Assembly: GCA_009929775.1 (NCBI GenBank)
Contig: RZZS01000012.1
Span: 1 to 47,268, forward strand
Direction of reading: 5' to 3'
From: Alphaproteobacteria bacterium
GTDB taxonomy: Bacteria > Pseudomonadota > Alphaproteobacteria > Micavibrionales > Micavibrionaceae
DNA length: 47,268 nt
Made by a program: the position numbers and the translations under genes. Positions 3,646 through 30,170 of the stretch are shown one piece after another; position 1 is the first letter of the stretch; every line of letters begins with the position of its first letter. Under the pieces are notes generated by a model. The model had not been told where the DNA came from. It ran no database searches and saw nothing but the letters and a program-made list of their open reading frames with translations.

Positions 3646-3754
3646 ATTTCCCTCTGTTCGATTGGTGTCGAAATTCGGCCAAAAACGGCTCAGAAACCCA
3701 GCTATCTGTGATAGGATACTTTCCGCAGTAAAGTCAAAGTCATTTCAGGGTTTC

Positions 3755-6028
3755 ATGGGACTTGGCGCACTCTACAACGACATTCCGATCGGCGTCTGCG
3801 TACTGCGGCTCGACCGGCGGAATACGGATGTGCTTTATGCGAACCCGGCCGGGCGTCTGCTGGCCGACGCGATTGAGGATGGCAAGTGCGAGGACCTTCT
3901 GCGCAAACTCAAATCCCCGAACCCGCCCCGCGAATACACCCTCAAGATCGAGGCGGCGGAACGCTGGAGCAAGCTCACCGTCGGCGAAGGCGAATATGAC
4001 GGAGAGGCTGTTTTCCTTTTATGGGCGACCGACATTTCCGCAAGCAAGGAAACGGAGGCGCGCCTGAAAGCGGCCGTCGAGGAAGCGGACGCCGCCGCCG
4101 AAATGAAAGCCAACTTCCTTGCGACGATGAGCCATGAAATCCGCACGCCCATGCAGTCCGTGTACGGCCTGCTCGAGCTGATCGGCGAGGAAAAACCTCC
4201 CTCCAATATCATGAGCATGGTCAATACGGCCAAGACGTCCGCCAGTTCGCTGCTGGAGATTCTCGACGATATTCTGGACCTTGCGAAGATGGACGCCGAC
4301 AAGATGGAACTGGACGTCTTCGAGGTTCCGGTCCGCACGCTCGTGCGCGGTATTATCGAAGCGCTCGCCGTCAAGGTGCACGGCAAAAAGGTCGTCCTTG
4401 TCGACGATATCGGGGAAGACGTCCCCTTCGTCGTCGTCGGCGACCCGAAGCGGTTGCGCCAGATCCTCATCAACCTCATGGGCAACGCGCTTAAGTTCAC
4501 CCATGAAGGATCGGTCACGGTGCGCGTGTCCACCGGAATCAAGGCGATCGCGAAACCGGGGCACGGCACGGCTCTGCGATTCGAGGTTGTCGATACCGGC
4601 ATCGGAATGAGCGAAGAGACTGCTGCACGGCTGTTCACGCCCTTCACGCAGGCCGACAGCTCGACCTCGCGCAAGTTCGGAGGCACGGGGCTCGGTCTGT
4701 CCATCTGCAAAAAACTCGTCGAACTAATGGGCGGAAAGATCGGCGTCACCAGCAAGGAGGAAAAAGGGTCCACCTTCTGGTTCGAAATTCCGACGGAAGA
4801 GGTCGGGACCGATGCGACCACGCTCGATCTTCCATCCCTTGACGGAATTTCCGTTCTCTCCGTCGAGGATCACCCGCAAGGCGCCAAGGAAATCGTCCGC
4901 TCGCTCGAATCGATGGGCGCCATCGTCGACAGCGTACCGACCTGCAAGGAAGGTCTCGAACTCGTTCGGCACAAGCCCTACGACGTCGGCGTCATCGATC
5001 AGGGACTTCCCGACGGGCTCGGGCTCGACCTCATCAAGGACATTGTGAATGTGCGTCCGTTCATGGGGCTCATCATGTATACCGTGCGCGACGACGTGGG
5101 ACTTGCGCACTCTCTGCAATCGCTCGGCGTTACCTACCTTACGAAGCCCGCAAGCCGCGCGGGACTGGGGGAAGCTGTAAAATCCGCCGCGCAATCGGTT
5201 GTAAGGATGGACATGGACGGCCCCAAAAGACTTCTGATCGCCGAAGACACCGAAAGCGTACGGGACGTCCTCCAGCGGCAGCTCGACAAACTCGGAATTG
5301 AGGCGGATTTCGTTACGGACGGACGGCAGGCCCTGGATGCGCTTGCGACCGGTGCCTACGGCATCCTGTTCACCGACCTGCACATGCCCGAAGTCGACGG
5401 CTACGAGGTCGTCAAGGCCCTTCGCGCGCGGGAAAAGGACGAGGGTCGTCATTTCCCCGTGGTCGTCCTGACCGCCGACGTCCATATGGCGCAACGTCAG
5501 GTCTACATGACGCACGGGTTTGACGAATGCCTCCTTAAGCCAGTGACACTCGGCCAGTTCCGCAGGCTCCTGATACGGTGGGGGATTCTCGGCGACGAGG
5601 ACGAACCGGCCACCGAACCGGATAGGGAAGTCCGCCAATCCTCCGAAAACGTCGGTGACGCCTTGCCGCCCGCCATCGACCAAGCGGCGATGATCCGGCA
5701 GATGGGCGCTTTCGACGGCGAAGCAATCGAGATGCTCGGATTGTTCGTCGAAATGAGCGCGCCACTTGTCGGCAAGCTGATCGAGGCACACAAGGCCGGC
5801 GATTTCCGCGGTCTGAGGGAAACCGCCCACAGCCTGAAAGGCGGCTCGCGCTCGGCCTGCGCCAACATTCTCGGCGATATCGCCGCCGAACTGCAGGACC
5901 GCGCCGAGGCGCAACAACCATGCGAAGACCTGATCGAAAAAACCGTCGCCGAGTTCGAGCGGGTCAGGCTGGAAGTGGACGAAATTCTCTTGTGCCCGAA
6001 GCCTAAGGACACGCCGTATTGCGCTTGA
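3755..6028 (+). CDS. Soluble hybrid histidine kinase with two receivers and an HPt domain
   Basis: This is a complete phosphorelay in one 757-residue chain. A PAS-like sensor covers about residues 1-95. The phospho-accepting histidine is H127 in MSHEIRTPM. The ATP-binding domain has the N box NLMGNALKF (near 244), G1 DTGIGM (near 280) and G2 GGTGLGLS (near 309). Receiver 1 has its acceptor aspartate near 415 in VIDQGLPDG, receiver 2 near 541 in FTDLHMPEVDG, and the C-terminal HPt has its histidine near 692 in AHSLKGGS. There is no transmembrane segment, so the signal is probably cytoplasmic. The ATG at 3755 is preferred to the upstream TTG at 3662 because TCAGGG precedes it and the PAS region begins there. 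The last 26 bases overlap the convergent prepilin-like gene. Confidence 0.9.
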   Translation: MGLGALYNDIPIGVCVLRLDRRNTDVLYANPAGRLLADAIEDGKCEDLLRKLKSPNPPREYTLKIEAAERWSKLTVGEGEYDGEAVFLLWATDISASKETEARLKAAVEEADAAAEMKANFLATMSHEIRTPMQSVYGLLELIGEEKPPSNIMSMVNTAKTSASSLLEILDDILDLAKMDADKMELDVFEVPVRTLVRGIIEALAVKVHGKKVVLVDDIGEDVPFVVVGDPKRLRQILINLMGNALKFTHEGSVTVRVSTGIKAIAKPGHGTALRFEVVDTGIGMSEETAARLFTPFTQADSSTSRKFGGTGLGLSICKKLVELMGGKIGVTSKEEKGSTFWFEIPTEEVGTDATTLDLPSLDGISVLSVEDHPQGAKEIVRSLESMGAIVDSVPTCKEGLELVRHKPYDVGVIDQGLPDGLGLDLIKDIVNVRPFMGLIMYTVRDDVGLAHSLQSLGVTYLTKPASRAGLGEAVKSAAQSVVRMDMDGPKRLLIAEDTESVRDVLQRQLDKLGIEADFVTDGRQALDALATGAYGILFTDLHMPEVDGYEVVKALRAREKDEGRHFPVVVLTADVHMAQRQVYMTHGFDECLLKPVTLGQFRRLLIRWGILGDEDEPATEPDREVRQSSENVGDALPPAIDQAAMIRQMGAFDGEAIEMLGLFVEMSAPLVGKLIEAHKAGDFRGLRETAHSLKGGSRSACANILGDIAAELQDRAEAQQPCEDLIEKTVAEFERVRLEVDEILLCPKPKDTPYCA

Positions 6029-6719
6029 ACCAGATGCGCAGGCAGCGGGAACCGGACGGACAAACCGCGCGATCCGGCGTGTTACTGTCCATATCGACCG
6101 CGGCCGCCGTGGCGTCGATGAGGTCGGCCTCGCACGGAGCATACTGTTCCGCCTCAAGCTTTTGCATCGCCGAGAGGAGATGGGAGTCCGAGTAGGACGT
6201 TTCAATCCATGTGAAAACCCCGTCAGCGCTATTGTACCACTTCCAGTCGCTAAACAGGTCCGGCGCCGGCGGCATGAACTTGCCCGATGATCCGGTGAAA
6301 ATGGAGGCATGGTCCGAATTGTTCCCCGGATTGCCGGGACAGCGCAGATCCTTGACCAAAGGTCCTGCCGTAGCCGAACCGCCAAAATGCGTCGAATCCG
6401 GAGCAAGCGGGAAAGGATGGTTATAACCTTCCTCAACTTCTGTTGGCGCGTCGGGGATCGTGTCATCCCCTCCCGGATAAAAGAGGACGCATTCCTGCAC
6501 AGCTGTCTGGATGAAATCCGCCTGCGATTTAAGGTCTGACGTCATTTTGAACGTGTTCTGGCTCGTCGTCTGCTGGCTTGAGGGCTCCATGAACGTGACC
6601 GTCAGTGCACCGAGCAACGCGATCGCAATCAGGATATAGACCAGCGCGGAACCGGATTCCGGATGCTGCGACAGCTCCTGGAAATTCGACGATACAAATA
6701 TCTCCCGATTTTCTTCCAT
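6003..6719 (-). CDS. Prepilin-like protein, last gene of the pilus operon
   Basis: The 238-residue product starts with a short basic/acidic leader and the motif ESGSALVYILIAIALLGALT, a class IVb-type prepilin pattern: a glycine before a hydrophobic helix of about 20 residues. Cleavage would fall after that glycine and be done by the peptidase encoded at 16430. The usual glutamate at +5 is not present, as in some minor pilins. The C-terminal part has several cysteines able to form disulfides. The start at 6719 is chosen because AGAGGG lies just upstream. The longer reading from 6827 has no good signal. It could be a minor pilin or tip protein. The 3-prime end overlaps the hybrid kinase gene. 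Confidence 0.7.
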   Translation of the reverse strand: MEENREIFVSSNFQELSQHPESGSALVYILIAIALLGALTVTFMEPSSQQTTSQNTFKMTSDLKSQADFIQTAVQECVLFYPGGDDTIPDAPTEVEEGYNHPFPLAPDSTHFGGSATAGPLVKDLRCPGNPGNNSDHASIFTGSSGKFMPPAPDLFSDWKWYNSADGVFTWIETSYSDSHLLSAMQKLEAEQYAPCEADLIDATAAAVDMDSNTPDRAVCPSGSRCLRIWFKRNTACP

Positions 6720-6744
6720 AAGCACCCTCTTTTTCCTAACGAGA

Positions 6745-6770
6745 GGCCCGGCGCACACCTGCCCCGGGCC
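6745..6770 (-). promoter_or_regulatory. GC-rich hairpin between the two prepilin genes
   Basis: The arms GGCCCGG (6745-6751) and CCGGGCC (6764-6770) pair perfectly across a 12-base loop. No U-run follows on either strand, so it is not a classical terminator. In the minus-strand transcript it lies between the two prepilin-like genes, just upstream of the ribosome binding site of the distal one. It could set their relative levels by mRNA protection or partial attenuation. This function is inference. Confidence 0.4.
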
Positions 6771-6813
6771 CAGTAAAAACCAAGAGAAGTCGTCTGGCTT
6801 CGTCCAGCCCCGC

Positions 6814-7566
6814 CTATCTTTCGACAAGCACGTGGTAGTAGACGAGGTCGCCTGCGGTTTGGGTCCCGTCCGTCTGGTCGAAGCACCCGAAAGGCTGACC
6901 TGCGAAAGCGCCTCCTATATGGTGTGTAGCGGCGGCGGCAGCAGCCCCGATCAGGCTGGAAGCCGTCCCGTTATCGACGGGCGCCTGCCGCGTCATAGCG
7001 TGCGTGGCGGACGCGGGAAGCGTGGGCATACCGACCGGAACGCCATCTCCATCCGTGTCTGTTCCACCCGTAATCCCCAACTCGGAATTGATCTTCTGGC
7101 AAACCGAGCGCGCGACACCCGGCAGGAAAGCGATAATGTCGTTCGCCGTCGCGTCCCCGTCACCCGTGGTGCCGATATCCACGATCTGGAAGGAACTGGA
7201 GAAGACCCAGGTTCCCTGTTGACCGTCATGCATCACATCCGGCGGGGCGGTCACGTAGGTTGCACCACCGTCAGCCGGGTGAAACACTCGCCGTCCAGCA
7301 GTCGAATCCGTATAGGGCGGCGGGTCGAACTCAAGCTCCGTGACGTCGACGCCACCGATAATCATACGCACAATCGAGGTTCGCACCGCAGCCGGGTACT
7401 GGGTAATCTGCGCACTGTTGACAAGAGCGGTTTCGCCATCGGCGGTCCCCGCTCCGGAGCGGCTGGACTGGGTCACGGCGTAGGACAACGCTGCGAACAG
7501 GGCTACCGCGATGAGAATCAGGAACAGGACGTTCCCTCCTTCATGCTGTCGGCTGCATTTCTTCAT
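6814..7566 (-). CDS. Prepilin-like protein, probable major or second pilin
   Basis: The 250-residue product begins MKKCSRQHEGG followed by a hydrophobic helix (about residues 12-32), the layout of a type IV prepilin with cleavage after the second glycine. The mature N-terminus would be asparagine and there is no glutamate at +5. The rest is small- and glycine-rich with DTDGDG near residue 168, which looks like a calcium loop. Cysteines near the middle and C-terminus may form a disulfide. A strong AGGAGG precedes the ATG. It is the first of two prepilin-like genes at the end of the operon and is larger than most major pilins, so a minor-pilin role is possible. Confidence 0.7.
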   Translation of the reverse strand: MKKCSRQHEGGNVLFLILIAVALFAALSYAVTQSSRSGAGTADGETALVNSAQITQYPAAVRTSIVRMIIGGVDVTELEFDPPPYTDSTAGRRVFHPADGGATYVTAPPDVMHDGQQGTWVFSSSFQIVDIGTTGDGDATANDIIAFLPGVARSVCQKINSELGITGGTDTDGDGVPVGMPTLPASATHAMTRQAPVDNGTASSLIGAAAAAATHHIGGAFAGQPFGCFDQTDGTQTAGDLVYYHVLVER

Positions 7567-7599: not shown

Positions 7600-8136
7600 T
7601 TACTGGCTGGCCGGGGCCACATCAATCCTGCTGATTTTGAGCGAGGCCCCAAGCTGGTAGTTGCTGCATTCGCGCCCGACGCACAGCTTGTCGACATTCA
7701 CCCGCCAGCCCTGACCACCATTCTGAACATGCCCGATCGCCTCCCGGAATTCCGGAAACGACGCCGTATTCTGGGCCGTGATAGCAATCGTCGGACCGCT
7801 GGCCTTAATATCCACTCCTCTGTATATTTCTCTGGCACCCTGAACGAAAGACTCCACGGCATTTTTATCCACCGGAACGTTGCGGATTTTCGGGACAGGC
7901 GGGTTAACCGCCTTGGCGTTTTGCAGTTCGGACCGTAACTCGATCAGGCTCTGGAGTTGGACGGCGGTAAAAAGGCCAAGAGCGCCGGCTGACGCCCAGG
8001 CGATACCGGCGGCGATGAGCGCGGTCTGCCCCGCATGATGGGGCAACTTTTCAAGAAAGGCGTTCAGGTCGTTGGCCGCGTTCGGGTCGACAATCTTCCT
8101 CAGCGTACGCCAATCAAAATTCTTCAGGTCTATCAA
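7600..8136 (-). CDS. Bitopic inner-membrane protein, GspM/PilO-like
   Basis: The protein has about 36 cytoplasmic residues, one transmembrane helix (37-59), a short heptad-like stretch and a C-terminal domain of about 100 residues that reads as a ferredoxin-like fold (segments near 105-125 and 140-170). Two cysteines in LCVGREC could form a disulfide in the periplasm. Size and topology match the GspM/PilO subunits of pilus and type II secretion platforms, but there is no clear sequence signature, so this is an inference from layout. The TTG start is the only reasonable start and has AGAAGGA some 14 bases upstream. It lies between the GspL-like gene and the prepilins. Confidence 0.6.
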   Translation of the reverse strand: MIDLKNFDWRTLRKIVDPNAANDLNAFLEKLPHHAGQTALIAAGIAWASAGALGLFTAVQLQSLIELRSELQNAKAVNPPVPKIRNVPVDKNAVESFVQGAREIYRGVDIKASGPTIAITAQNTASFPEFREAIGHVQNGGQGWRVNVDKLCVGRECSNYQLGASLKISRIDVAPASQ

Positions 8137-8279: not shown

Positions 8280-9290
8280 TCAGCGACTGCCGACAATTCG
8301 TACCCGACCATCCTTCTCGATTACCCCGGTCGCCCGCCCGCGAATCGCAGAGATGTCGTTTCCCTCCAAAGCTCTCGGGACCAGCGCTTCCCATTGGACG
8401 GAATTTCCGTTGACCTCATAACGCACCAGAGTACCGTCGATGCGGCGCAAACTGTCGAGTAGCTCCTGAATGCGCACCATATGCCTGATCATATCGCTTT
8501 GCATTGACTGGGCGGCCTGCATCATCAGGTCCGCCGCCTTCGCCTCGGTCTCGGCCCTCACCTGCGTAAGATCACGCTGCATTACACCAGTCGCAAGGAA
8601 ATTCACCGTCAGAAGGAGAATGCAGAATACGTTGACCGCAAGACCTGTCAGGAGCAGCACCCGAGTTGTCGCCCGCGCCAGCTTCTCCGTGTATAGCGCC
8701 TTGTTCCTCCAGGGGAGCGTTTTGGCCACCTCAGGGTTCACAGTAACGAAATTAGCGTCCATGCTTTGAATTCGCGGCAAAATCGTCCGCGCTGCACCGA
8801 GAAAAACCTGCATCCGACCGGTTTCCGGATCCCACCGAAGGGCGCTGGCAATCCCTTCCTGTTCGTAAAGATAGACGGTTTCCTTGTCCCAAAATTCGCT
8901 TTGGCCCGGCAATGCCGCAGCCAGCGGGCACCAACTGTCCGGATTGGAAGCCAGCGAGGAAGACGGGCAGGCAAGATACCATATCCGCTTTTCATCGATG
9001 GAGTACACATAATGGACCTTTTCGGTCGCGCAGGCCTGGGCCGCGGCGTTCCAGACAGCCTCATCCTCGGAACCTGGAATGTGAGGGATCGATCCACCGA
9101 TCAGATCCATTGGCAGATAGGGATTGAGCTCAGCCTTGAACTCGCGGACCTCGCCCGCAAGGCGATCGGCAACGCCGGGCCGCAGCGGAAGTCGTTTGAC
9201 CGCACCGGCGCCTTCCGGTCCCTTCGGCACGGGCCGGCCCCCCTTGCGCCCCCCAACCTGGGCATCGTCGCCGCGTACGGGTGTTTCCAA
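8280..9290 (-). CDS. Bitopic platform protein, GspL-like topology
   Basis: The 336-residue protein has an N-terminal domain of about 205 residues with no signal peptide, one transmembrane helix at 209-234, a coiled-coil stretch at about 238-278 and a small C-terminal domain near 280-336. This is the topology of GspL/BfpC-type proteins, whose cytoplasmic domain holds the assembly ATPase while the periplasmic part pairs with a GspM-like partner. The next gene has that partner layout. I see no family motif, so the assignment rests on order and topology. The start is TTG at 9290, with AGGGGG about ten bases upstream lying inside the last codons of the preceding reading frame, which suggests coupled translation. 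Confidence 0.6.
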   Translation of the reverse strand: METPVRGDDAQVGGRKGGRPVPKGPEGAGAVKRLPLRPGVADRLAGEVREFKAELNPYLPMDLIGGSIPHIPGSEDEAVWNAAAQACATEKVHYVYSIDEKRIWYLACPSSSLASNPDSWCPLAAALPGQSEFWDKETVYLYEQEGIASALRWDPETGRMQVFLGAARTILPRIQSMDANFVTVNPEVAKTLPWRNKALYTEKLARATTRVLLLTGLAVNVFCILLLTVNFLATGVMQRDLTQVRAETEAKAADLMMQAAQSMQSDMIRHMVRIQELLDSLRRIDGTLVRYEVNGNSVQWEALVPRALEGNDISAIRGRATGVIEKDGRVRIVGSR

Positions 9291-9292
9291 GG

Positions 9293-9532
9293 CTAGATAG
9301 CCCCCTGCAGAAGACCGCCCATCATGCTATCCATACTCATATTCATAACCGTCAGGGCATAAATGGCGCTACCAAAGGCGATAGCCAGATACACGCCTGT
9401 CAAGCCAAAGGCTATCCAGACGATAAGAGAGTGCTTTGTCTTGGCCGATGCGCTGCGCATTTCGGCGATGGACTCCATAACTGTAGCAACTTGTGTCAAA
9501 TCAGACAAGCTCGCCAGTTCAAGCCGCTCTGC
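9293..9532 (-). pseudogene. C-terminal remainder of the GspF/PilC-type platform gene after an in-frame TGA
   Basis: This stretch continues in exactly the same frame as the platform gene that stops at 9535-9533. Read on from the TGA, it gives AERLELASLSDLTQ, then a helix-rich segment and the final transmembrane helix (LIVWIAFGLTGVYLAIAFGS), ending at TAG. That is the expected C-terminal part of a GspF-fold protein, and together the two parts reach about 406 residues, the family norm. A separate short gene starting at TTG 9508 (71 residues) is formally possible but has a weak ribosome binding site. I read it as a split single gene, through mutation, sequencing error or recoding. Confidence 0.75.
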
Positions 9533-10513
9533 TCAGGTCAGGGGCGGTCGATCGAGAGTACTGCCAAGGTTGACGCCGCGGGAGAGTTCTACGCCAGCCG
9601 AAGTCCAGTAATCCGCGACCTCCGGAACCGTTGTCGCCTCCGACGCCTGTTTCAAGGCCTCATCGATCGGCACAAGACCGCGCAGCATCCGGGCCGAAGC
9701 CATCATCGAGTCGGCGAAGCCAAGATCGCGCAGGTAGGCTCCGACAAGTGGAATCTTCCGCACCACGCGCGCTGTGGGCCAGTCGGTCTTTCCCCTGTTC
9801 ATCCAGAATGAGATGATACACCAGACAAGAAAGCTTCCCGCTGCAAAGCAGCTGTAGATAAGGACATCCCACGTCAATTCAAGATTGCTGACAACGCGCT
9901 TGTACTTTTCGAGTTCCTCAGGATCGGTCGGCGCGTTGCCCCGGAACCACTCAAGAACCATGTCTTTCCCCCAGAACAGCGACTGGGTGATCATCAGCAC
10001 ATCGATGCCGAGCCAGGACATCGTCGCGGCAATGGCGCGGGAATTTTTTCGCTTCTGGGCGATGGAATGAATAGCGTGGGGAATCCCGTCCTGCAGACGG
10101 TTCGCGCGCTCGCTTGCGGCCAGAATGGCGATCGTGCCATGGTCGAAAATTTTCAGCGCCCTGAGCGCGTCGATGACACCAAGACCGCGGGCGAGCGCTT
10201 CCCGGGCCGGGGCCAGAATGTTCTGGCGTCTTGGATTCGTCTCGGCCTGAATAATTTTCCAGAGTGCCACACCCGGCGAGGTCGCGGTCGAACGGAACTG
10301 GATGCCCCGCAGCAACTGGACCTGCCACCACGTGGAGCGCGCCAGCAGACGCTCGATGGCGGATCGTTCATGCGGACGAATACGCAAAACGTAACCGCCG
10401 GCCTTGGCAATGGCATGGCGCACATCCTCTTCCGAGGGCATGTAATATGATTCTGTGACCTTCCGGGGACCGGAGGTCGTCTCATAAGCGACGTCGGCAA
10501 CCCACTGTTTCAT
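9533..10513 (-). CDS. GspF/PilC-type inner-membrane platform protein, stops early
   Basis: The 326-residue reading frame covers the first cytoplasmic GspF domain, transmembrane helices near 162-182 and 211-238, and most of the second cytoplasmic domain. The order after the ATPase gene is that of GspE-GspF, PilB-PilC and PilQ-PilR pairs. The protein stops at TGA after STLDRPPLT, before the last membrane helix, which family members need to complete the platform. The missing part lies directly downstream in the same frame. The ATG start lies 21 bases after the ATPase stop codon. A functional product would require readthrough, or assembly from two chains if the second part is translated from its own TTG. 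Confidence 0.85.
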   Translation of the reverse strand: MKQWVADVAYETTSGPRKVTESYYMPSEEDVRHAIAKAGGYVLRIRPHERSAIERLLARSTWWQVQLLRGIQFRSTATSPGVALWKIIQAETNPRRQNILAPAREALARGLGVIDALRALKIFDHGTIAILAASERANRLQDGIPHAIHSIAQKRKNSRAIAATMSWLGIDVLMITQSLFWGKDMVLEWFRGNAPTDPEELEKYKRVVSNLELTWDVLIYSCFAAGSFLVWCIISFWMNRGKTDWPTARVVRKIPLVGAYLRDLGFADSMMASARMLRGLVPIDEALKQASEATTVPEVADYWTSAGVELSRGVNLGSTLDRPPLT

Positions 10514-10534: not shown

Positions 10535-12361
10535 CTATTCTTCGAGATACATGATCGCCGATTTTGGATCAACAAGGCCGTTTTCGACAAGATCAACAAG
10601 ACCATCGCGCCGCGTATGCACGATCACGCCATCCTCTTTCATGACATCGTTAACGTTGTGCAACAGGGCTTCATATATCCCGTTCCTCTGCTGAGGCCCC
10701 TTCGTGATAATCAAAGCGTCAAGAAGCAGGGTCCGGCCCGCGATGCCCGTCCGGTTGCAGAGGTCGCAGCCACTTGTGTTGTGCGTGCGCACCGAAATGT
10801 CCGGGTCGAGACCGAGCCGTTCCATTTCGTCAGAACGCAGGCATTCGCTGACTTTGCTCCTGTGGGCGCAACCCTGGCAGAGCGTGCGAACAAGGCGCTG
10901 GTTCAAAACCGCCTTCACCTGCTGGGCCAGCGTATAGGTCGAGGATCGCTCGCGCTGGTGCGGCATGAGAGAACGCAAACGCTCGAAAGTCTGAAGCGCT
11001 GTATCGGCATGGACGGTCGAAATAACGGTGTGACCCGACTCGGCCGCGCGCAAGGACGTTTCTACCGTGTCCCCGTCCCGCATCTCCCCGATGATGATAT
11101 AGTCAGGATCGTGACGCATGGCGGCGCGAATCAGGTCGGCGAATTCGCCGCCCGGCATGCCGGGACGTACCTGCCATTGGGTTGCGTAGCGCATTTCGTA
11201 TTCGATCGGATCTTCAATTGTAAGAACATGGCGGCGACGGCGGTCGATCTGCTGCACGCACGCGTAAAGGGTCGTCGTCTTACCAGAACCCGTCGGGCCG
11301 GAAAGAAGGATCAAACCGCCGCCGCCCTTGATTTCCGGAGAAAGAAGTTTTGCGAGGTAGTCGCCAACATCCTCATGACGACGGAACAACTCGTCAAACC
11401 CCTTCAGTGCAGCCCGGTCAAGCAGACGAAGCGTAAGCTTTTCGCCGTCCTGTCCCTGCGGCCCCGCGGCCACACGAACGTCAATACTTCGGCCCTGCCA
11501 GATGAAACCGAATCGCCCGTCCTTCGGCGTCACGCGGTCACCGAAGTTAAGACCGGCATCCCGCTTCAGGAGCGTGGTCAGACGGGCCATTGCCTCTGCC
11601 GGCAAAAGGTGCATCGGGATCAGATCACCGTCGATCCGGTACTTGATCCAGTTCGGCGCGTCGGGATTGTTGTCCTGCACGAGGTGAATATCCGAAGCCC
11701 TCATTTGCAGGGCCTCAGCCATCATGTCACGCTGGAACTGGTTAAGAAGCAGGCCGTTATCCGTATCATCGAGCCAGAGAGCAAGCGTCTTTTCGCAGCG
11801 GTCTGCCGAAAGATCGTGCACGGACCGGAGCGTATCCGCCAGCTCCTTGCGGTCCCAGACCTCGATTTCAACCTTTTCGACGTGGAAGCCGCTTCGGTTC
11901 GCGGTTGAAATCAAAGTCTCGATCTGGCGATCATTGAGTTCGTGTAACGGAGCAATTTTCAGAACGCCTTCCACGAGGCCAATCAGGTGAATCGAGAGGG
12001 GCAGCCACGACTGCACAGGCAGTACGCTTCGTAACTGGTCTCCCGTCGCACGATCCCGGATTCCCTCTTCCTCGGCTTCCGACGGGAGTGCAGCACCCGC
12101 CATGTCGAGGAGTTGTTCCGTCGACCGAGCGACCCCTTGCTCAAGCAACATCGCGCGCTCGCGCTGCACCATGTCGAGGTAGCGCTCCCGCCCCTCCGCC
12201 GAGCGCCGCCTTCTGCGGTCCTGCCAGCTCCGGCGTTCCAGCCCCTCCGGACTGTCACCAGTACGCGCGCGCCGCTCCCGACGCCCCCGGCGATCAGCAG
12301 ACAGCGCCCCTTGGTTTTCCGGGTTATTCAAGCCTTCCGATGGAAGTTCCTGATCGGTCAT
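10535..12361 (-). CDS. Pilus assembly / secretion ATPase, GspE/PilB family
   Basis: This hexameric ATPase drives pilin polymerisation from the cytoplasmic face. In 608 residues, an arginine-rich, low-complexity N-terminus (about 24-60) precedes the N1/N2 region. The Asp box RASDIHL is at 221-227, Walker A GPTGSGKT at 355-362, Walker B IIIGEMRD near 422-429, and the His box GHTVISTVHAD at 443-453. A zinc-binding tetracysteine is at C495, C498, C532 and C535, as in extension ATPases rather than the retraction ATPase PilT. The charged N-terminal tail is unusual. The start ATG lies four bases from the stop of the ASH-PilP gene. No retraction ATPase is visible in the window. Confidence 0.93.
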   Translation of the reverse strand: MTDQELPSEGLNNPENQGALSADRRGRRERRARTGDSPEGLERRSWQDRRRRRSAEGRERYLDMVQRERAMLLEQGVARSTEQLLDMAGAALPSEAEEEGIRDRATGDQLRSVLPVQSWLPLSIHLIGLVEGVLKIAPLHELNDRQIETLISTANRSGFHVEKVEIEVWDRKELADTLRSVHDLSADRCEKTLALWLDDTDNGLLLNQFQRDMMAEALQMRASDIHLVQDNNPDAPNWIKYRIDGDLIPMHLLPAEAMARLTTLLKRDAGLNFGDRVTPKDGRFGFIWQGRSIDVRVAAGPQGQDGEKLTLRLLDRAALKGFDELFRRHEDVGDYLAKLLSPEIKGGGGLILLSGPTGSGKTTTLYACVQQIDRRRRHVLTIEDPIEYEMRYATQWQVRPGMPGGEFADLIRAAMRHDPDYIIIGEMRDGDTVETSLRAAESGHTVISTVHADTALQTFERLRSLMPHQRERSSTYTLAQQVKAVLNQRLVRTLCQGCAHRSKVSECLRSDEMERLGLDPDISVRTHNTSGCDLCNRTGIAGRTLLLDALIITKGPQQRNGIYEALLHNVNDVMKEDGVIVHTRRDGLVDLVENGLVDPKSAIMYLEE

Positions 12362-12364
12362 ATT

Positions 12365-13957
12365 TTAAAAATCTGTTGTGGTCGAAGTCGTCGATACCGC
12401 GGTCGTGGGTGCAGCGCCCGAAGCCCCGGCCCCACTCCCGCTATCACCCGATTGTCCTGTAGCGCGGTTAATAGAAGATAAAGATCTGTCAAACAAAAGC
12501 AGAACCTTATCTTTTCCGCTCCGGAACTCCACTCCGCTCTTGCGCATGACGACTTCCCACAGAACGCCGCCGATGACGACTTCCTCGCCACCGAACACGA
12601 CACGGCTGCCACCTGGCCCGGCAATGATCGCCCGCGTGGGCGCAAAGGACGTGATCACGAACCCGTCGAGTGCCTTCGCCTTGTTGACACCAGCAACTTC
12701 CGGGATTTCCGGCTCGTCGTCATCGTCGAGCCCGAGTTCCGACGCGTCCAGTTGCAAACCCGGCGATCCGCTCAGATAGATCGCCTGAGAATCCTGACTG
12801 ACGGCCGATTCGGCCGTGCCGCGCGCCGGGATAACGAGAATGCCGCGCGCACCGTTATGCATAATCTGCACATCGTCCAGCAGTGTGCCGGCCCTCACCG
12901 GCGCCCAGGACAGCGTTAAGGGACACGCCTGTATCGGCTCAAGAATCATGCCCGGCGTGCAGCCCTGATCCTCGATCGCGAGCCCGTTGTCCCTGCCGGA
13001 CAGACGAAGGTCCTCAAGCACGAGCGGCGCGTCCCCCACATTGACAAGGGAAACGGTGATCGAGCTTTTCGAACTGATGTCCGCGCCAAAATCCACATCT
13101 TCCTGCGAGGCCACAAGAAGCCCCCGACCGGGCACGGCCTTCGGAAAGATCGTCGCGGCATCCATGTCTTCCGGCGTATACTCGCCCTCGAGATTCACGC
13201 TGACAACCCCGGTTGGTCCATTATGGTCAACCACGATGACGCCGGTTGCAGGTCCTTCCTGAAGGGGGGCCCAGGTGACAGTGGCAATGCAGGCCTGGCC
13301 TGCCTCAAGCCGCGTGCAATCCGTGCGAAGCGAATACCCGGCGCTCGGATTGGCCTCAATCGTTATAGAATCGATATCGATTGGCGTCGATGTTATGTTT
13401 CGCAGGATCAACGATTTGACAAGCGTGCGGCTTGCGGACAGAGAGCCGAAATCAAGCTCGTCGGGAATGGCTTCAACGTCACTGATAAGTTTGTCGGAAC
13501 CGTCCCCGGTCCCGTCAACCGTTCCGGCGAGAGTCGCCGTCACGAGACGAGTCCGACCGTCATGACGCATCAGCATTTCGGTTCGCCACGGGCCTGGCTG
13601 CAGTCCCTTTACCGAAAGCGCAATCGCGCACTCCGCGCCAGGGGGCAAAGGTTCCCGACTGCACTGATTAAGGGCGACACTGGCGGAAACGGTCGAGGAT
13701 GGGTAGAGGTTGATCTCTCCGGTCTGAACAGGCCGTCCGCCCTCGTTACGGAACAGAACGACGATCTGCGCCGAGGCGCCGATCGGAATCGCTCCGCCGT
13801 CGACGGACGGGTTCACGGGAATAAGGCCGCCCGCTCCACCGGCAACCTTTGCCGACGGGTCGTCAAACGCAGACTGGGCCCGGACTTCATTGCTCGAAGA
13901 CAGGAGAACGCAGGCGACAATTGCAAAGACGAAAAGTGAACGAATCGGACGTGCCAT
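12365..13957 (-). CDS. Secreted PilP-like pilus protein with Ig-like ASH domains
   Basis: The product (530 residues from ATG 13957) starts with a signal peptide ending near VRAQS, so the chain is periplasmic. Three successive beta-rich units of about 100 residues carry cysteine pairs and ASH/choice-of-anchor-D signatures such as LDFGSLSASRT and VDFGADISSKSS. After an acidic linker, the C-terminal region reads VVFGGEEVVIGGVLWEV with a hydrophobic final strand, which fits the PilP fold that contacts the secretin. The end is a Ser/Thr/Ala/Gly-rich tail. A GTG at 13993 is an alternative start; neither start has a strong ribosome binding site. It sits between the secretin and the ATPase, where PilP/PilO would be found. 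Confidence 0.7.
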   Translation of the reverse strand: MARPIRSLFVFAIVACVLLSSSNEVRAQSAFDDPSAKVAGGAGGLIPVNPSVDGGAIPIGASAQIVVLFRNEGGRPVQTGEINLYPSSTVSASVALNQCSREPLPPGAECAIALSVKGLQPGPWRTEMLMRHDGRTRLVTATLAGTVDGTGDGSDKLISDVEAIPDELDFGSLSASRTLVKSLILRNITSTPIDIDSITIEANPSAGYSLRTDCTRLEAGQACIATVTWAPLQEGPATGVIVVDHNGPTGVVSVNLEGEYTPEDMDAATIFPKAVPGRGLLVASQEDVDFGADISSKSSITVSLVNVGDAPLVLEDLRLSGRDNGLAIEDQGCTPGMILEPIQACPLTLSWAPVRAGTLLDDVQIMHNGARGILVIPARGTAESAVSQDSQAIYLSGSPGLQLDASELGLDDDDEPEIPEVAGVNKAKALDGFVITSFAPTRAIIAGPGGSRVVFGGEEVVIGGVLWEVVMRKSGVEFRSGKDKVLLLFDRSLSSINRATGQSGDSGSGAGASGAAPTTAVSTTSTTTDF

Positions 13958-13978
13958 AACAAAGAGTAGCGTTTTAGC

Positions 13979-14020
13979 GTGGCGGATTGCCACCTATTTG
14001 TGGCGGATTTCCACCTATTT
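13979..14020 (-). repeat. Tandem 21-base repeat forming two mini-hairpins
   Basis: Two consecutive copies, 13979-13999 and 14000-14020, differ at one base. On the minus strand each reads AAATAGGTGG(A/C)AATCCGCCAC. Within each copy GGTGG can pair with CCGCC (one G-U pair) around a four-base loop. They lie in the short gap between the secretin gene and the ASH-PilP gene, upstream of both candidate starts of the latter. They could be a regulatory or RNA-processing element, or simple slippage. Confidence 0.6.
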
Positions 14021-14115: not shown

Positions 14116-15792
14116 TTACTGCCCTCCGGGATTGAGTATATCCAGCGGGACCGAAGTCATCGGACTGCCCCCCTCACCCATTCCTTCGAAGTCGTCCGCC
14201 TCGTCCCGCTCCCACCCCGACTGCGACACAGGCAACCGTTGCGGCTGGCGGCGCTCCGGAATAACCGGACCGTCTTCCATAATCCGGTAATCGGGTTTGA
14301 CAACCCCGTAGGTGAGGTCGGGGTTCATGTCGACGGGCGGCGAATAGTCGAATTGATCCGGCTCCAGCAGCGAACCGCCCCCCTGCACCGCGTCCGTATA
14401 GGCGATCACCCGGGGACGCAGAAGGAAAACAAGTTCCGAATTCGAAACAGTTGCCGAGCGCGATGTCGGAAAAATGACGTTCATAAAGCCCGGCCCGCTT
14501 TCATTGAGTTCGTCGTTCTCGCGAATCAGACCGGCAATAAGAAGCGAGTCTCCGGGCCGGATCCGCACCTGCGTTACCAGCTCCCGCTCGGTCGTTCGTG
14601 GTAACTTCAGTTCTGTATCCCCGGCCTCGAACGGCTGGAAACCCTGAAATTCCTGAAGCTCGATTTCGATATTGCCGTAAACGGTCGCATTGTCCCACGC
14701 GCTTTCGATCGTAAGCGTAAAACCGGTGTCGACCGTATCGGTCTGGGTCGAGACCGTCTCCTCTCCATCGTCGACCGTACGCTCGAGCGAGGAAACGTAA
14801 TTCTCTGTATCGGCGACGCGAAGGCTGGCTTCGCTGCCGGAAAGCATCGTGATCTGGGGCTGAGAAATCGTTTTTACGGCACCGTAGGTCGAGATGAAAT
14901 CGAGAACATTGTTCGCAAAGTCGACCGTCTGTGTCGTCGGCAGGCCAATGCTTATCGGCGTAATTTCCGACCCCGTGACGCCTCCGGCAAGATTGAGTCC
15001 GAGATTGAACTTCCCGAATGTATCGATCTGACTCCAGTCGATGCCCGTCAGGTTGCCCGAGTTGAGCGCGACTTCCCAGATATAGATTTCGAACACAATC
15101 AAAGCAGTGCTCTTGCGCATCCTTTGGAAGTAACGCTCGGCAAGCTCGGCTGTCCGATGGGTCGCCGTATATACGATCGTGCGAGTGCCCTCGTCCACGA
15201 TCGGGGACTCGCCCGTAATGGCCTGAAGCCCTTGTCCAAGCGCGGAGATGAACCCGCTTTCGCCGCCAACCGGGGGAATGCTGACCGTAAATGTCTGCGT
15301 TTCCTTGATGACGAGGAGCCCGTCCTCAAAAGCGCAATAAAGATCGGCGAGACCGCAGATCCGCCGGACCACCCGATTGAGCGGCCCCTTCAGATTGGCC
15401 ACTGTAATCCGCCGGGTCAGTCCCTCTTCCGTTTCGAACGCCAGCGGAATGTCATAGTCCGCAAGAATAAGCTGCAGCGCCCCCGCCAACGTCTCCGAAC
15501 GGAGTTCGAACGGGCCGATAACATCGGAAGGCAGAGGATCGTCAGACATCGTGATCGGAACGAGAACGTCCTGACCGAGTGGCAGATACATAACACTGTC
15601 GGGCCTCTCGTTCACTGCCGACGGCCGCCTCTCCGCTGTGGCTGGCGGCGGAATATCAACAGCGCGAACTTTCGGCGCACCCGCATCCGCGCAGCTTACC
15701 AAAGCCGCAAGCACCGGCCCCATCGCCAGAAGCATGGCAAGCCTTCGGGAGAAGGATGCAATCTCCTCCGCCCGGCGGGTCCTCGCGGACAA
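14116..15792 (-). CDS. Secretin lipoprotein of the type IVb pilus, PilN/BfpB-like
   Basis: This protein forms the outer-membrane pore for the pilus. It is 558 residues with a lipoprotein signal ending in the lipobox LVSC at C34, a feature of PilN/BfpB/TcpC-type secretins. An N-terminal domain lies near residues 90-165, followed by a ring-forming domain. The C-terminal secretin core includes ISQPQITMLSGSEASL near 315 and VRIRPGDSLLIAGLI near 448. A proline- and acid-rich tail of about 90 residues follows. The start is TTG at 15792. An ATG at 15735 would leave a short signal. It is the second gene of the operon, 20 bases after the receiver protein gene. Confidence 0.9.
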   Translation of the reverse strand: MSARTRRAEEIASFSRRLAMLLAMGPVLAALVSCADAGAPKVRAVDIPPPATAERRPSAVNERPDSVMYLPLGQDVLVPITMSDDPLPSDVIGPFELRSETLAGALQLILADYDIPLAFETEEGLTRRITVANLKGPLNRVVRRICGLADLYCAFEDGLLVIKETQTFTVSIPPVGGESGFISALGQGLQAITGESPIVDEGTRTIVYTATHRTAELAERYFQRMRKSTALIVFEIYIWEVALNSGNLTGIDWSQIDTFGKFNLGLNLAGGVTGSEITPISIGLPTTQTVDFANNVLDFISTYGAVKTISQPQITMLSGSEASLRVADTENYVSSLERTVDDGEETVSTQTDTVDTGFTLTIESAWDNATVYGNIEIELQEFQGFQPFEAGDTELKLPRTTERELVTQVRIRPGDSLLIAGLIRENDELNESGPGFMNVIFPTSRSATVSNSELVFLLRPRVIAYTDAVQGGGSLLEPDQFDYSPPVDMNPDLTYGVVKPDYRIMEDGPVIPERRQPQRLPVSQSGWERDEADDFEGMGEGGSPMTSVPLDILNPGGQ

Positions 15793-15812: not shown

Positions 15813-16199
15813 TCAGGTTACGTGCCTTTTGTCGTGCCGGAGAATTCTCTCCACAGTTTTAACAAGCCTATCTTTCTGGACCGGCTTCAGCAAGACCGCT
15901 CCCACCCCCCATTTGCCAGCCTCTCTCAGGAGATCCGGATTCTGGTCTCCGGTCGCAAGAACGACCGGGATTGCCAGATCCAGCCCCCGGAGCGAACGAA
16001 TGAATTCGAAACCATCAATCGGCTCCATCCGGACATCAACAATAGCCAGCGAGACCGAGCGATCCAGGAGATCAAGCGCATCGTCGCCGCGTGACGCCTG
16101 GACAACCTCGACCCCTTCGATCGAGGACAGGTAGCGAACGATCTGCATGCGGACAAAGTCATTGTCCTCCACGACCAGAATTTTCTCTGTTTCACTCAT
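15813..16199 (-). CDS. Single-domain response regulator at the head of the pilus operon
   Basis: The 128-residue protein is a receiver domain only. Acidic residues ED are near residues 11-12, the phospho-acceptor aspartate is in LAIVDVRMEPIDG near residue 54, and the conserved lysine is in LLKPVQ near 105. There is no output domain, so it should act by protein contact, like DivK or CheY. The start ATG at 16199 is preferred over an upstream in-frame start at 16259 because the receiver fold begins at once. Its position as first gene suggests that pilus assembly is tied to a phosphorelay, possibly the hybrid kinase at 3755. Confidence 0.85.
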   Translation of the reverse strand: MSETEKILVVEDNDFVRMQIVRYLSSIEGVEVVQASRGDDALDLLDRSVSLAIVDVRMEPIDGFEFIRSLRGLDLAIPVVLATGDQNPDLLREAGKWGVGAVLLKPVQKDRLVKTVERILRHDKRHVT

Positions 16200-16429
16200 C
16201 CTGCAAAGAAACTTTTCAGATGCGCTCCAGTATCTGAACGATCTGGGATGAAAATGCATAATTCAACTTGACGCTACAGAATTTCAAAGGGCCCGGCAAT
16301 GACGGCAGGGACTTATCCACCGCCTTTCCACCGATTTTTCAGTCACCCTGCCGACTTGATCTGATTCCGCAGAAGGCCTAGAATACCCTCGTTTTCGTTT
16401 GCGCAGCCCTGATTTGAGCCCATAACACA

Positions 16430-16975
16430 TTGCTGACTTCTATCTCGCTCATTTTTATCATTGTCGCCTTCGGTCTCCTCGTCACCCTCTCGCTTGTAGA
16501 CCTGAAAGTACGGTTGTTGCCAAATGAGATGGTGCTGGGATTTCTTACCTGCGGTGCCGTTTTTCACGTGGCGACGTGGTTTACATACGTCTCCGCGATT
16601 GACGCAGCCATGGGAGCTGTCGCAGGCTTCTGCAGCCTCTACCTTGTCCGCACGCTGGCCAATGCGATTTACAAGGACGACGCGATGGGACTGGGCGACG
16701 TAAAACTCGTCGGCGCGGGAGGATTGTGGGTCGGCATAGACGGCATTTTCCTCGTTATTGCCATTGGCGCCTTCGCCGGTGTCCTGCACGGGCTCGTCGA
16801 GGCATTCGTTCTGACACGCCGAGAGCGGAGACGTGTCCATCTTAGCGAGTTGTCCGTTCCCGCAGGCCCGGGCTTCGCACTTGGCATCGCGCTCGTAACC
16901 GGATGGACTATCACTGATTTCTTCATGTCCTTCTTCGATGGCAGCTTGACAGGCCCCGCCGCCGCCGTGCTATGA
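16430..16975 (+). CDS. Prepilin peptidase (A24 family), short form
   Basis: This inner-membrane aspartic protease trims prepilins. The 181 residues hold about six hydrophobic segments. One catalytic aspartate lies in LVDLKVRLLPNE near residue 24 and the second in the GxGD motif MGLGDVKL near residue 87. The N-terminal methylase domain with its cysteine pairs, present in PilD, is absent, as in TadV/CpaA and several type IVb peptidases. The start is TTG at 16430; the ribosome binding site is weak. It is divergent from the pilus operon whose two prepilin-like products are its probable substrates. The 230-base gap between them probably holds both promoters, but no clear consensus stands out. Confidence 0.88.
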   Translation: MLTSISLIFIIVAFGLLVTLSLVDLKVRLLPNEMVLGFLTCGAVFHVATWFTYVSAIDAAMGAVAGFCSLYLVRTLANAIYKDDAMGLGDVKLVGAGGLWVGIDGIFLVIAIGAFAGVLHGLVEAFVLTRRERRRVHLSELSVPAGPGFALGIALVTGWTITDFFMSFFDGSLTGPAAAVL

Positions 16976-26960: not shown

Positions 26961-28295
26961 TTAAACCGCCTTCGCGTGTTTGGTGGCACTTTCCTGCCAG
27001 TAGGCATCAAACGCGGTGCAGATGAGGCGGGTGAAGATTTTGCCTTTTTCGGTGATTTTTAAGCTACAGCCGTTCAGTTCCACGAGCCCGTCCTGCTGGT
27101 AGCTGGCGAGGCGGGAGAGTGCCTGATTACGGATAGGCGCTTCCAGATGACCAAAATCCACTTCCCGGAAACACATGATTTTCTCGATCACGGCGCGGCG
27201 GGCGCGGTCCTCATCATTAATCTTGATGCCGCGGCTGTGCGCGAGCAAACCGGCAGAGGCCTGCTCGCGGTAGGTTTTGATCATCGGCGTGTTCTGGATA
27301 TAGCCTTTCGGGAGCGCGCTGATGGCGGACGCGCCAAAAGCAAGCAGCGTCTGGCAGTTATCGGTCGTGTACCCTTGAAAATTCCGGCGCAGCGTGCCGT
27401 TCCTGAAGGCCTCGGTCATTTTATCGCCGGGCGCGGTGAAGTGGTCGATGCCAATTTCGGTGTAGCCGGCGGCCTCCAGCATCTCGCGCGTCTGGTTATA
27501 CAGCCGGTAGCGCTCCTGCGAGTCCGGAAGATGCCATTTCTCGAGCCGCTCCTGATGCTTCTTGAACCACGGCACATGCGCGTAGCCGAAGACGGCGAAC
27601 CGCTCGGGCGCGAGCTCAAGCGATTGCTCAATCGTGCGGGAGAATTTCGCCTCCGTCTGGAGCGGCAGGCCGTAAATCAGGTCGAAATTGATGGACGAAA
27701 TCCCCACCTCGCGCAGCCAGCGCGCGCAGTCGCGCACCATCTCGAAGGGCTGGACCCGGTTGATCGCTTCCTGCACGTCCGCGTCAAAATCCTGTACGCC
27801 GAAGGAGGCACGGTTCACGCCAAGGTTGCGGATAAAAGGCGCACGGCCCTCTTCGAGCGTGCGCGGGTCGATCTCCATCGCGTGCTCGGCTGTATCCAGA
27901 ATGTCGAAGGAGCGATTCACCGTCTCCATGATCCCGGCCATATCCTCGTCGGAGAGGAAGGTGGGCGTACCACCGCCCCAGGCGACATAGGCGACCTTGA
28001 GGCGCTTGCCGATCAAATGCGTGACCGTCTCGATCTCACGCCGGATCGCGTCGACGTAAGCCGTCGCCGGGTCGTAGTGATCCAGAATTTTCGTGTGACA
28101 GCCGCAATAAGTGCAAAGCTTGCGACAAAAGGGCACATGGAGGTATAGCGAAACAGGTTCGTCCGCGCTCAAATGCGGGAGCCATGCCTGGGCATGCCCC
28201 GCCCCGACCTTGTCCGAGAAATGGTTGGCGGTCGGATAGCTCGTATAGCGGGGAACGTTGCAGTCGTATTTTCTGATCAGAGACTCTATTTGCAT
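26961..28295 (-). CDS. hemN: Oxygen-independent coproporphyrinogen III oxidase
   Basis: This radical-SAM enzyme decarboxylates coproporphyrinogen III to protoporphyrinogen IX without oxygen. The 444-residue length and N-terminus (RYTSYPTA near residues 16-23) are those of true HemN rather than the shorter HemW. The cluster ligands are C57, C61 and C64 in PFCRKLCTYCGC. GGGTPTFL near 109-116 is the SAM-binding GGTP region, and the C-terminal HemN domain is present. Its presence points to heme synthesis under low oxygen. It is divergent from the S1-less RNase R gene; no FNR box is clear in the 80-base gap. Confidence 0.95.
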   Translation of the reverse strand: MQIESLIRKYDCNVPRYTSYPTANHFSDKVGAGHAQAWLPHLSADEPVSLYLHVPFCRKLCTYCGCHTKILDHYDPATAYVDAIRREIETVTHLIGKRLKVAYVAWGGGTPTFLSDEDMAGIMETVNRSFDILDTAEHAMEIDPRTLEEGRAPFIRNLGVNRASFGVQDFDADVQEAINRVQPFEMVRDCARWLREVGISSINFDLIYGLPLQTEAKFSRTIEQSLELAPERFAVFGYAHVPWFKKHQERLEKWHLPDSQERYRLYNQTREMLEAAGYTEIGIDHFTAPGDKMTEAFRNGTLRRNFQGYTTDNCQTLLAFGASAISALPKGYIQNTPMIKTYREQASAGLLAHSRGIKINDEDRARRAVIEKIMCFREVDFGHLEAPIRNQALSRLASYQQDGLVELNGCSLKITEKGKIFTRLICTAFDAYWQESATKHAKAV

Positions 28296-28376
28296 AAAAA
28301 GCGCTTCATTTTCGGTTCAAGAGAGTATATAGCTAGCGCAAACCTGAAAAAATACAAACGAACAGAGAGCCCTCGC

Positions 28377-30170
28377 GTGCAAAGTAAACTAGCCTCGTCC
28401 GAACCTTTTTCGGATGTCCTCCCGTCTCCCCGGCAAATTGTCGAATATCTCGCGGAAACCGGAGCCATGGGTTTACGAGAACTAACAAAAGCGTTCAGCC
28501 AATCACACAACTCGGACTTCCGGAACTTAGTCGGGCAGATGGCCGCTGTCGGTCTTGTGCGTCGTCGCAACGGCCTTTACATAGTTGATACTTCCGACCC
28601 GAAGCGCCTCAAGAGTATTTTCCAAACAGCCTCCCAATTCGAACTGAAACCCTTGCCACGACGGCTAAGGAAAAGAGGCCACGGCGCGACCACCATCACG
28701 GGCGTTGTTCTTCAAACAGAACATGGCCCAGTTCTCGAGCCCATGGACGGCGGCAGGCGTTTTGAGATAGATCCAGAGGACGTGAGGATAAGGCCTGGGG
28801 ATATCGTAAAAGCTACGATTCACAGGTCAGACACCCCGGCCTCTCCGGCCCTCGCCCGCGTAAAAACGATACAGGAGCATATGAACCGACCGGAAGCCGT
28901 CAGCCAGTTCGTTATCGACAATGCCGGTTTCCGGATTGAATTCCCGGCCGAGGTCCTCGCAGAAGCCAATTCTCTTAAGGCCCCGGCAGACGGCGAGCTT
29001 GAAGACTTCACGGAGCTCCCGCTCTACACGATAGATCCTGCCAACGCCCGGGACAGGGACGACGCCATCGGCGCAACCGGGCCGGACGAGGACGGCAACC
29101 GCATGATATACATAGCCATTGCCGATGTTTCCTACTACGTCAAACGAGGAAGCGCTCTGGACCGGGAGGCCAGAGAACGCGGCAATTCGATTTACTTTCC
29201 GGACCGTGTGATCCCCATGCTGCCAGAAAGGCTCTCGAACGATCTTTGCTCTCTCAACCCACGAGAGAATCGCCCGGCCCGCCTGTGGACCATAAAGATC
29301 GGACCGGAGGGGGAAATCCTGGAGTCCGCACTTTCCCGGGGCATGATTCGCTCCCGGGAAGCCTTTAACTACCAGGAAGTTTCAGAAGCAGTTCTTGACG
29401 GCAAACCCAACGAAAAGACAGCGCCGCACAAAGATCATCTCGTCAACATCCTCAAGGCCGGTGAAATCCGTCGGAATACGCGCGAGCGACAGAATGCGCT
29501 CCACCTCAATGCAGGCGAACTGGAAATAGACTTAAGCGGCGACGGTGTCTGGAACATAAGCCTGGAGGTGCGCAACAGCGCACATGAAGCTGTGGAAGAA
29601 TTCATGCTCGCCGCAGGCATTTGCGCAGCAGAAATGATTGAGGAAACGGGCGTCCCGTGCATCTATCGCGTCCACGATCAAATGCCGGCAGAGCGCGTTG
29701 AAGCCGCCTTGCGCGATCTGGAGGAATTGGGGTATCCGCTGAAACAGGATAAATTATCCAACCTTACGCTGAACGGTATACTCGCGAAAGCAAAAGGATC
29801 GCAGCAAGAAACGCAAGTCATTCAAACGATCGTCAGATTGCAGTCTCTTGCCCATTACTCCACCGAAAACATCGGGCACGCAGGCCTCGGTCTCCGCGTG
29901 TACACGCAGTTCACCTCACCTATCAGGCGATACGGCGACCTCGAAGTGCATCGTGCACTGGATGGAGACACGGCACAGCTCAGCCACCTGCAGGCAGTCG
30001 CAGAACACATCTCGTCCACCGAGCAGATGACCGCCCAAGCGGAAAGGCAGGCAAGCAGTTTATACGCAAGGATTTTCGGCAATGGAAGTCCAGTCCGCCC
30101 GTCCAGCCCGGCACCACAACCGGTTGTTCGAGCGGGCGAAAAACTCCCTGAGCCAGCCCCAATTTGCTAG
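28377..30170 (+). CDS. RNase R/II family protein without an S1 domain
   Basis: This 597-residue paralog of the next gene has an N-terminal winged-helix region (SPRQIVEYLAETGA), an OB/cold-shock-like part (GVVLQTEHGPVLEP) and a full RNB catalytic domain. The metal-binding aspartates are in TIDPANARDRDDA (near residue 219), and the signature FTSPIRRYGDLEVHR is near residue 510. The C-terminal S1 RNA-binding domain of RNase R is missing, replaced by a proline-rich tail. The residues needed for 3-prime to 5-prime exonuclease activity appear intact. The start is GTG at 28377, after an AGAGAG sequence. Upstream in-frame starts would run into hemN. Tandem RNB genes are unusual. Confidence 0.85.
   Translation: MQSKLASSEPFSDVLPSPRQIVEYLAETGAMGLRELTKAFSQSHNSDFRNLVGQMAAVGLVRRRNGLYIVDTSDPKRLKSIFQTASQFELKPLPRRLRKRGHGATTITGVVLQTEHGPVLEPMDGGRRFEIDPEDVRIRPGDIVKATIHRSDTPASPALARVKTIQEHMNRPEAVSQFVIDNAGFRIEFPAEVLAEANSLKAPADGELEDFTELPLYTIDPANARDRDDAIGATGPDEDGNRMIYIAIADVSYYVKRGSALDREARERGNSIYFPDRVIPMLPERLSNDLCSLNPRENRPARLWTIKIGPEGEILESALSRGMIRSREAFNYQEVSEAVLDGKPNEKTAPHKDHLVNILKAGEIRRNTRERQNALHLNAGELEIDLSGDGVWNISLEVRNSAHEAVEEFMLAAGICAAEMIEETGVPCIYRVHDQMPAERVEAALRDLEELGYPLKQDKLSNLTLNGILAKAKGSQQETQVIQTIVRLQSLAHYSTENIGHAGLGLRVYTQFTSPIRRYGDLEVHRALDGDTAQLSHLQAVAEHISSTEQMTAQAERQASSLYARIFGNGSPVRPSSPAPQPVVRAGEKLPEPAPIC

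Follow-up and report, generated by a model that had tools for sequence, protein, structure and literature searches.

GspF/PilC platform proteins of type II secretion systems and type IV pili share two helical cytoplasmic domains, arranged with the membrane helices in a common order. In Klebsiella PulF, the central channel of the trimer is built from six helices, contributed by TMS1 and TMS3, and assembly is abolished when this channel is blocked; a Tyr-Pro pair in TMS1 and a Glu-Pro pair in TMS3 are conserved in the T2SS and T4aP members (PMC10790770). For Micavibrio, a role of type IV pili in attachment to prey has been proposed (PMC3189940).

We analyzed a 47,268-nucleotide stretch of DNA (contig RZZS01000012.1, hereafter the window) from a Micavibrio-related alphaproteobacterium. 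The gene at 9293-10513, which belongs to a type IV pilus operon, codes for a platform protein of the GspF/PilC type whose two helical domains and membrane helices follow the order given above; an in-frame TGA interrupts the gene. Its features are as follows.

9293-10513, minus strand: GspF/PilC-type pilus platform gene, interrupted, 406 codons (translation, profile, model and relatives)
9536-10513, minus strand: translated part, 326 aa, running from the N-terminal domain through Cyto1 and the first two membrane helices into Cyto2
9533-9535, minus strand: in-frame TGA, codon 327 (Arg 42, Lys 7, His 1 and Tyr 1 in 51 relatives)
9296-9532, minus strand: post-stop part, 79 codons, on which purifying constraint is still strong (comparison with relatives)
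9332-9436, minus strand: last membrane helix (TMS3), absent from the truncated product (hydrophobic segment and model)

Translation of 10513-9293 on the minus strand yields 326 residues, the TGA at 9535-9533, 79 residues in the same frame and a TAG at 9295-9293, with no frameshift, just as the original prediction had described the gene. The frame comprises 406 codons, stop codon included, and most relatives are unbroken proteins of ~404-409 aa, so the joined frame does have the usual family length that had been claimed for it. The last hydrophobic segment lies at about codons 360-394, downstream of the TGA, and reading past the stop therefore restores the last membrane helix, as also foreseen. 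At 93.7% identity to the nearest relative, the post-stop frame is, on sequence comparison, not a product of chance. In its own genome (2.99 Mb, 190 contigs) the platform gene is single-copy with one internal TGA. Other T2SSF matches occur at two places: that on C35 has two domains in one frame, as in a type II secretion F protein, while those on C45 fall in two neighboring frames with one domain each, as in TadB/TadC. Since these are the only other matches, there is no spare platform copy for this pilus.

The assignment to the GspF/PilC family rests on profiles, a structural model and gene context. Against the T2SSF profile (PF00482), the truncated part scores 22.9 bits, below the cut-off of 25.2, whereas the read-through frame scores 27.5 bits, above it; 26 of 28 aligned family members match this profile at an E-value of 0.01 or better. 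A structural model built on 28 family sequences (mean pLDDT 76.8, pTM 0.52) shows an N-terminal beta domain, the helical Cyto1, two long membrane helices, the helical Cyto2 and the last membrane helix, in this order. Cyto2 (residues ~261-365) matches the cytoplasmic domains of OutF, PilC and EpsF with Z scores of about 12-13 and rmsd values of 2.2-3.6 over 105-111 residues (VIA; OutF, Z 12.9, rmsd 2.2, 105 aligned; PilC and EpsF, Z 12.3 each), and Cyto1 matches TcpE (VIA, Z 10.9). For helical domains, Z scores near 12-13 are only moderately specific, but the top rows belong nearly all to the GspF/PilC family. Sequence profile comparison with solved chains gave PilC as the best, albeit weak, match. 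The gene adjoins an assembly ATPase, and a secretin and a prepilin peptidase are encoded nearby, in the following context.

6003-6827, minus strand: pilin-like protein, intact (relatives)
6814-7566, minus strand: pilin-like protein with an N-terminal hydrophobic segment, intact (relatives)
7600-8136, minus strand: small operon protein, intact (relatives)
8280-9290, minus strand: 336-aa operon protein with a hydrophobic segment and no named family, intact (relatives)
10535-12361, minus strand: pilus assembly ATPase (T2SSE), intact (profile and relatives)
12365-13993, minus strand: operon protein with ASH/HYDIN-like Ig domains, intact (profile and relatives)
14116-15792, minus strand: secretin, nearest to the MshL/PilN type, intact (profile and relatives)
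16430-16975, plus strand: prepilin peptidase (Peptidase_A24) (profile)

The other genes of the operon align to those of relatives without internal stops, and the claim that the rest of the operon is undecayed thus holds. The 542-aa ASH/HYDIN-like protein, encoded between the ATPase and the secretin, has 51-56% identity in relatives, and its C-terminal part may be PilP/GspC-like. A 21-bp unit containing an inverted repeat occurs twice at the start of its gene (13979-14020). The 336-aa protein, which has no match in Pfam or NCBIfam, is found in 85 of the 104 family genomes and co-occurs with the platform gene. A hybrid histidine kinase with an Hpt domain (3662-6028, plus strand) and a lone response regulator (15813-16259, minus strand) flank the operon and may regulate it. 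Within the operon, terminator and promoter patterns do not exceed chance expectation.

The stop is private to this assembly. The platform gene is present in 84 of the 104 family genomes, this one counted, and in 12 more genomes of the order. None of the other 95 genomes has an internal stop in the matched part, with a few of the matches ending at contig ends. This comparison set spans the family and the order at levels above the genus of the present genome. The same codon was also compared in relatives, as had been suggested: across 51 distinct aligned relatives, codon 327 encodes Arg in 42, Lys in seven, His in one and Tyr in one, and in none of them is it TGA; in the pairwise alignment with one relative (L006), a gap falls on this codon. 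The usual residue at this position is thus a basic one, and Arg codons are one substitution away from a stop. Homologs naturally ending at LDRPPLT, which the original prediction had named as a finding that would count against it, were looked for among the relatives and none occurred.

We then asked how the codons beyond the stop have evolved. The nearest relative (L031, the same as L002) shares 79.4% identity with the gene up to the stop, rising to 93.7% beyond it. The post-stop codons differ from those of this relative by 38 synonymous and five non-synonymous changes, and none of the 40 near-invariant columns after the stop has changed. The dN/dS ratio is ~0.025 after the stop and ~0.075 before it, both rough values because dS is near 2 and saturated. 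With zero changes in 40 columns and a branch dS of 0.3 to 1.0, any period of neutral drift is bounded to ~3-11% of the branch. By these comparisons the 79 post-stop codons look fully selected, so the stop is either very young or not real. The original prediction of a recent lesion is thus supported by the constraint and by the private occurrence of the stop, while a consensus error stands beside it as an alternative.

From the assembly sequence alone, a very recent lesion is inseparable from a consensus error. The TGA could be a wrong consensus base, or a minor strain variant chosen by the assembler, with the gene intact in the organism; such an error or strain mixture at one base explains the same data equally well as a real mutation. 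The assembly is a 190-contig draft with 3.72% contamination, the stop is found in this assembly only, the remaining operon is intact, and the zero decay downstream is what an error would give. A single lesion per ~145 genes also fits a low error rate. On the other hand, nothing in the sequence flags the base as doubtful, and the surveyed sample showed no further internal stop, so the assembly as a whole is not a poor one. We consider an error of this kind quite conceivable, if somewhat improbable. The explanation to which we incline, by a little, is a private and very recent single-base nonsense mutation that truncates the platform protein after residue 326 of 406, and we infer that the TGA is a real base.

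A further possibility is that the TGA is decoded as an amino acid and that full-length platform protein is made by functional readthrough or recoding, as had been proposed. The full conservation of the post-stop frame would fit this idea, but the use of TGA elsewhere in the genome would not. In a sample of about half a megabase of the same genome plus the window, TGA is the commonest stop, ending 432 of 854 ORFs of at least 200 aa (spurious ORFs included), and clear window genes ending in TGA include pyrB and pyrC. The RF2 gene (prfB) is present in the genome, so TGA termination has not been lost. A tRNA-Sec was not found in the genome: both matches above the cut-off prove to be tRNA-Ser (UGA and CGA) according to ARAGORN. 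The platform gene alone has a true internal stop among ~145 non-overlapping genes for which a related complete genome has homologs; this survey included the window itself, and the count outside the window is zero. Nor is a stop at codon 327 conserved in any relative, unlike what would be expected of a programmed site. We therefore regard decoding of this TGA as very unlikely. More doubtful still, on a reading of part of the genome's tRNAs, is that a lineage-specific suppressor tRNA or leaky termination yields some full-length protein, such that a reversible stop would tune pilus production in a predatory-type bacterium.

Non-overlapping hits were used in this survey because the raw ORF-by-ORF version was flooded by antisense ORFs, and the remaining stops were rejected as true internal stops, since they sit at gene ends or in apparently spurious antisense ORFs. 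Two frameshift-like cases were also set aside: that in the 28-32 kb part of the window is actually two adjacent RNB paralogs, and that at L106 looks like two adjacent genes overlapping by ATGA, which form one ORF in the relative. The RNB-domain genes (RNase II/R type) lie next to each other at 28173-30170 and 30253-32502 on the plus strand.

The two parts of the gene might alternatively be made as separate chains that cooperate, in the manner of TadB and TadC. Tad systems do use two shorter platform paralogs (PMC10790770), and in-frame start codons are present downstream of the TGA, among them the TTG at 9508 (codon 336) from which the second chain had been suggested to start. However, TadB and TadC each hold a whole domain and the pieces here do not: the TGA cuts within the helical bundle of Cyto2, ahead of its last helices, rather than between domains. 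No relative is split. No convincing ribosome-binding site was found upstream of this TTG or the next starts; the TTG has a duplex energy of -3.5, against a background mean of -4.5, and no Shine-Dalgarno-like sequence, a lack that several other starts in the window share and that is weak evidence alone. The best post-stop start, the ATG at codon 352 (duplex energy -7.4), would leave only 55 residues. Taken together, these features make a working two-chain protein extremely improbable.

In the model that we propose, a nonsense mutation of one base, confined to this strain, stops the platform protein at residue 326. The truncated product would extend from the N-terminal domain through Cyto1 and the first two membrane helices into Cyto2, but would be cut off before the last helices of Cyto2 and before TMS3, the third membrane helix. 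In the GspF/PilC proteins studied so far, TMS3 borders the central channel of the platform trimer. Since TMS3 and the end of Cyto2 are missing, a loss of function is expected, and the product should be inactive. Such a protein would not support pilus assembly, and the strain would lack this pilus despite the other operon genes being intact.

To place this in context, we considered the distribution of the system in the family. The platform gene is missing from 20 of the 104 family genomes, and in about 16 of these 20 the cognate secretin is missing as well, with weak GspD-like matches only; these ~16 genomes include near-complete ones with few contigs. Three gene-lacking genomes of one genus carry a divergent secretin and a divergent 336-aa gene, and one incomplete genome retains part of the secretin. 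The whole pilus system thus appears to be absent from about 16 of the 104 family genomes, which suggests that its loss is tolerated in some lineages. Judging from this distribution, whole-system loss probably happened repeatedly in the family, which makes a real first lesion plausible, though unproven. If the stop is real, one pilus system of a Micavibrio-related bacterium would here be knocked out naturally through a single gene, at a stage preceding any decay, in a lineage starting to lose a system that other family lineages have lost entirely. If instead it is an error, all that it offers is a caution about a draft assembly. Either way, nothing new on decoding follows, and the break is of the ordinary single-letter kind.

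Compared with known systems, the platform protein reported here is distant in sequence from named equivalogs such as GspF, ComGB and PilC, and differs from them in being interrupted by a stop. Its closest counterparts are the platform proteins of the orthologous pilus operons of Micavibrionaceae, which have 60-82% identity, equal length and shared neighbors, and are all without the stop. With recent nonsense pseudogenes of the ordinary kind it shares a single stop, no other decay and a sense codon in relatives, and it is unusual among them in its recency alone.
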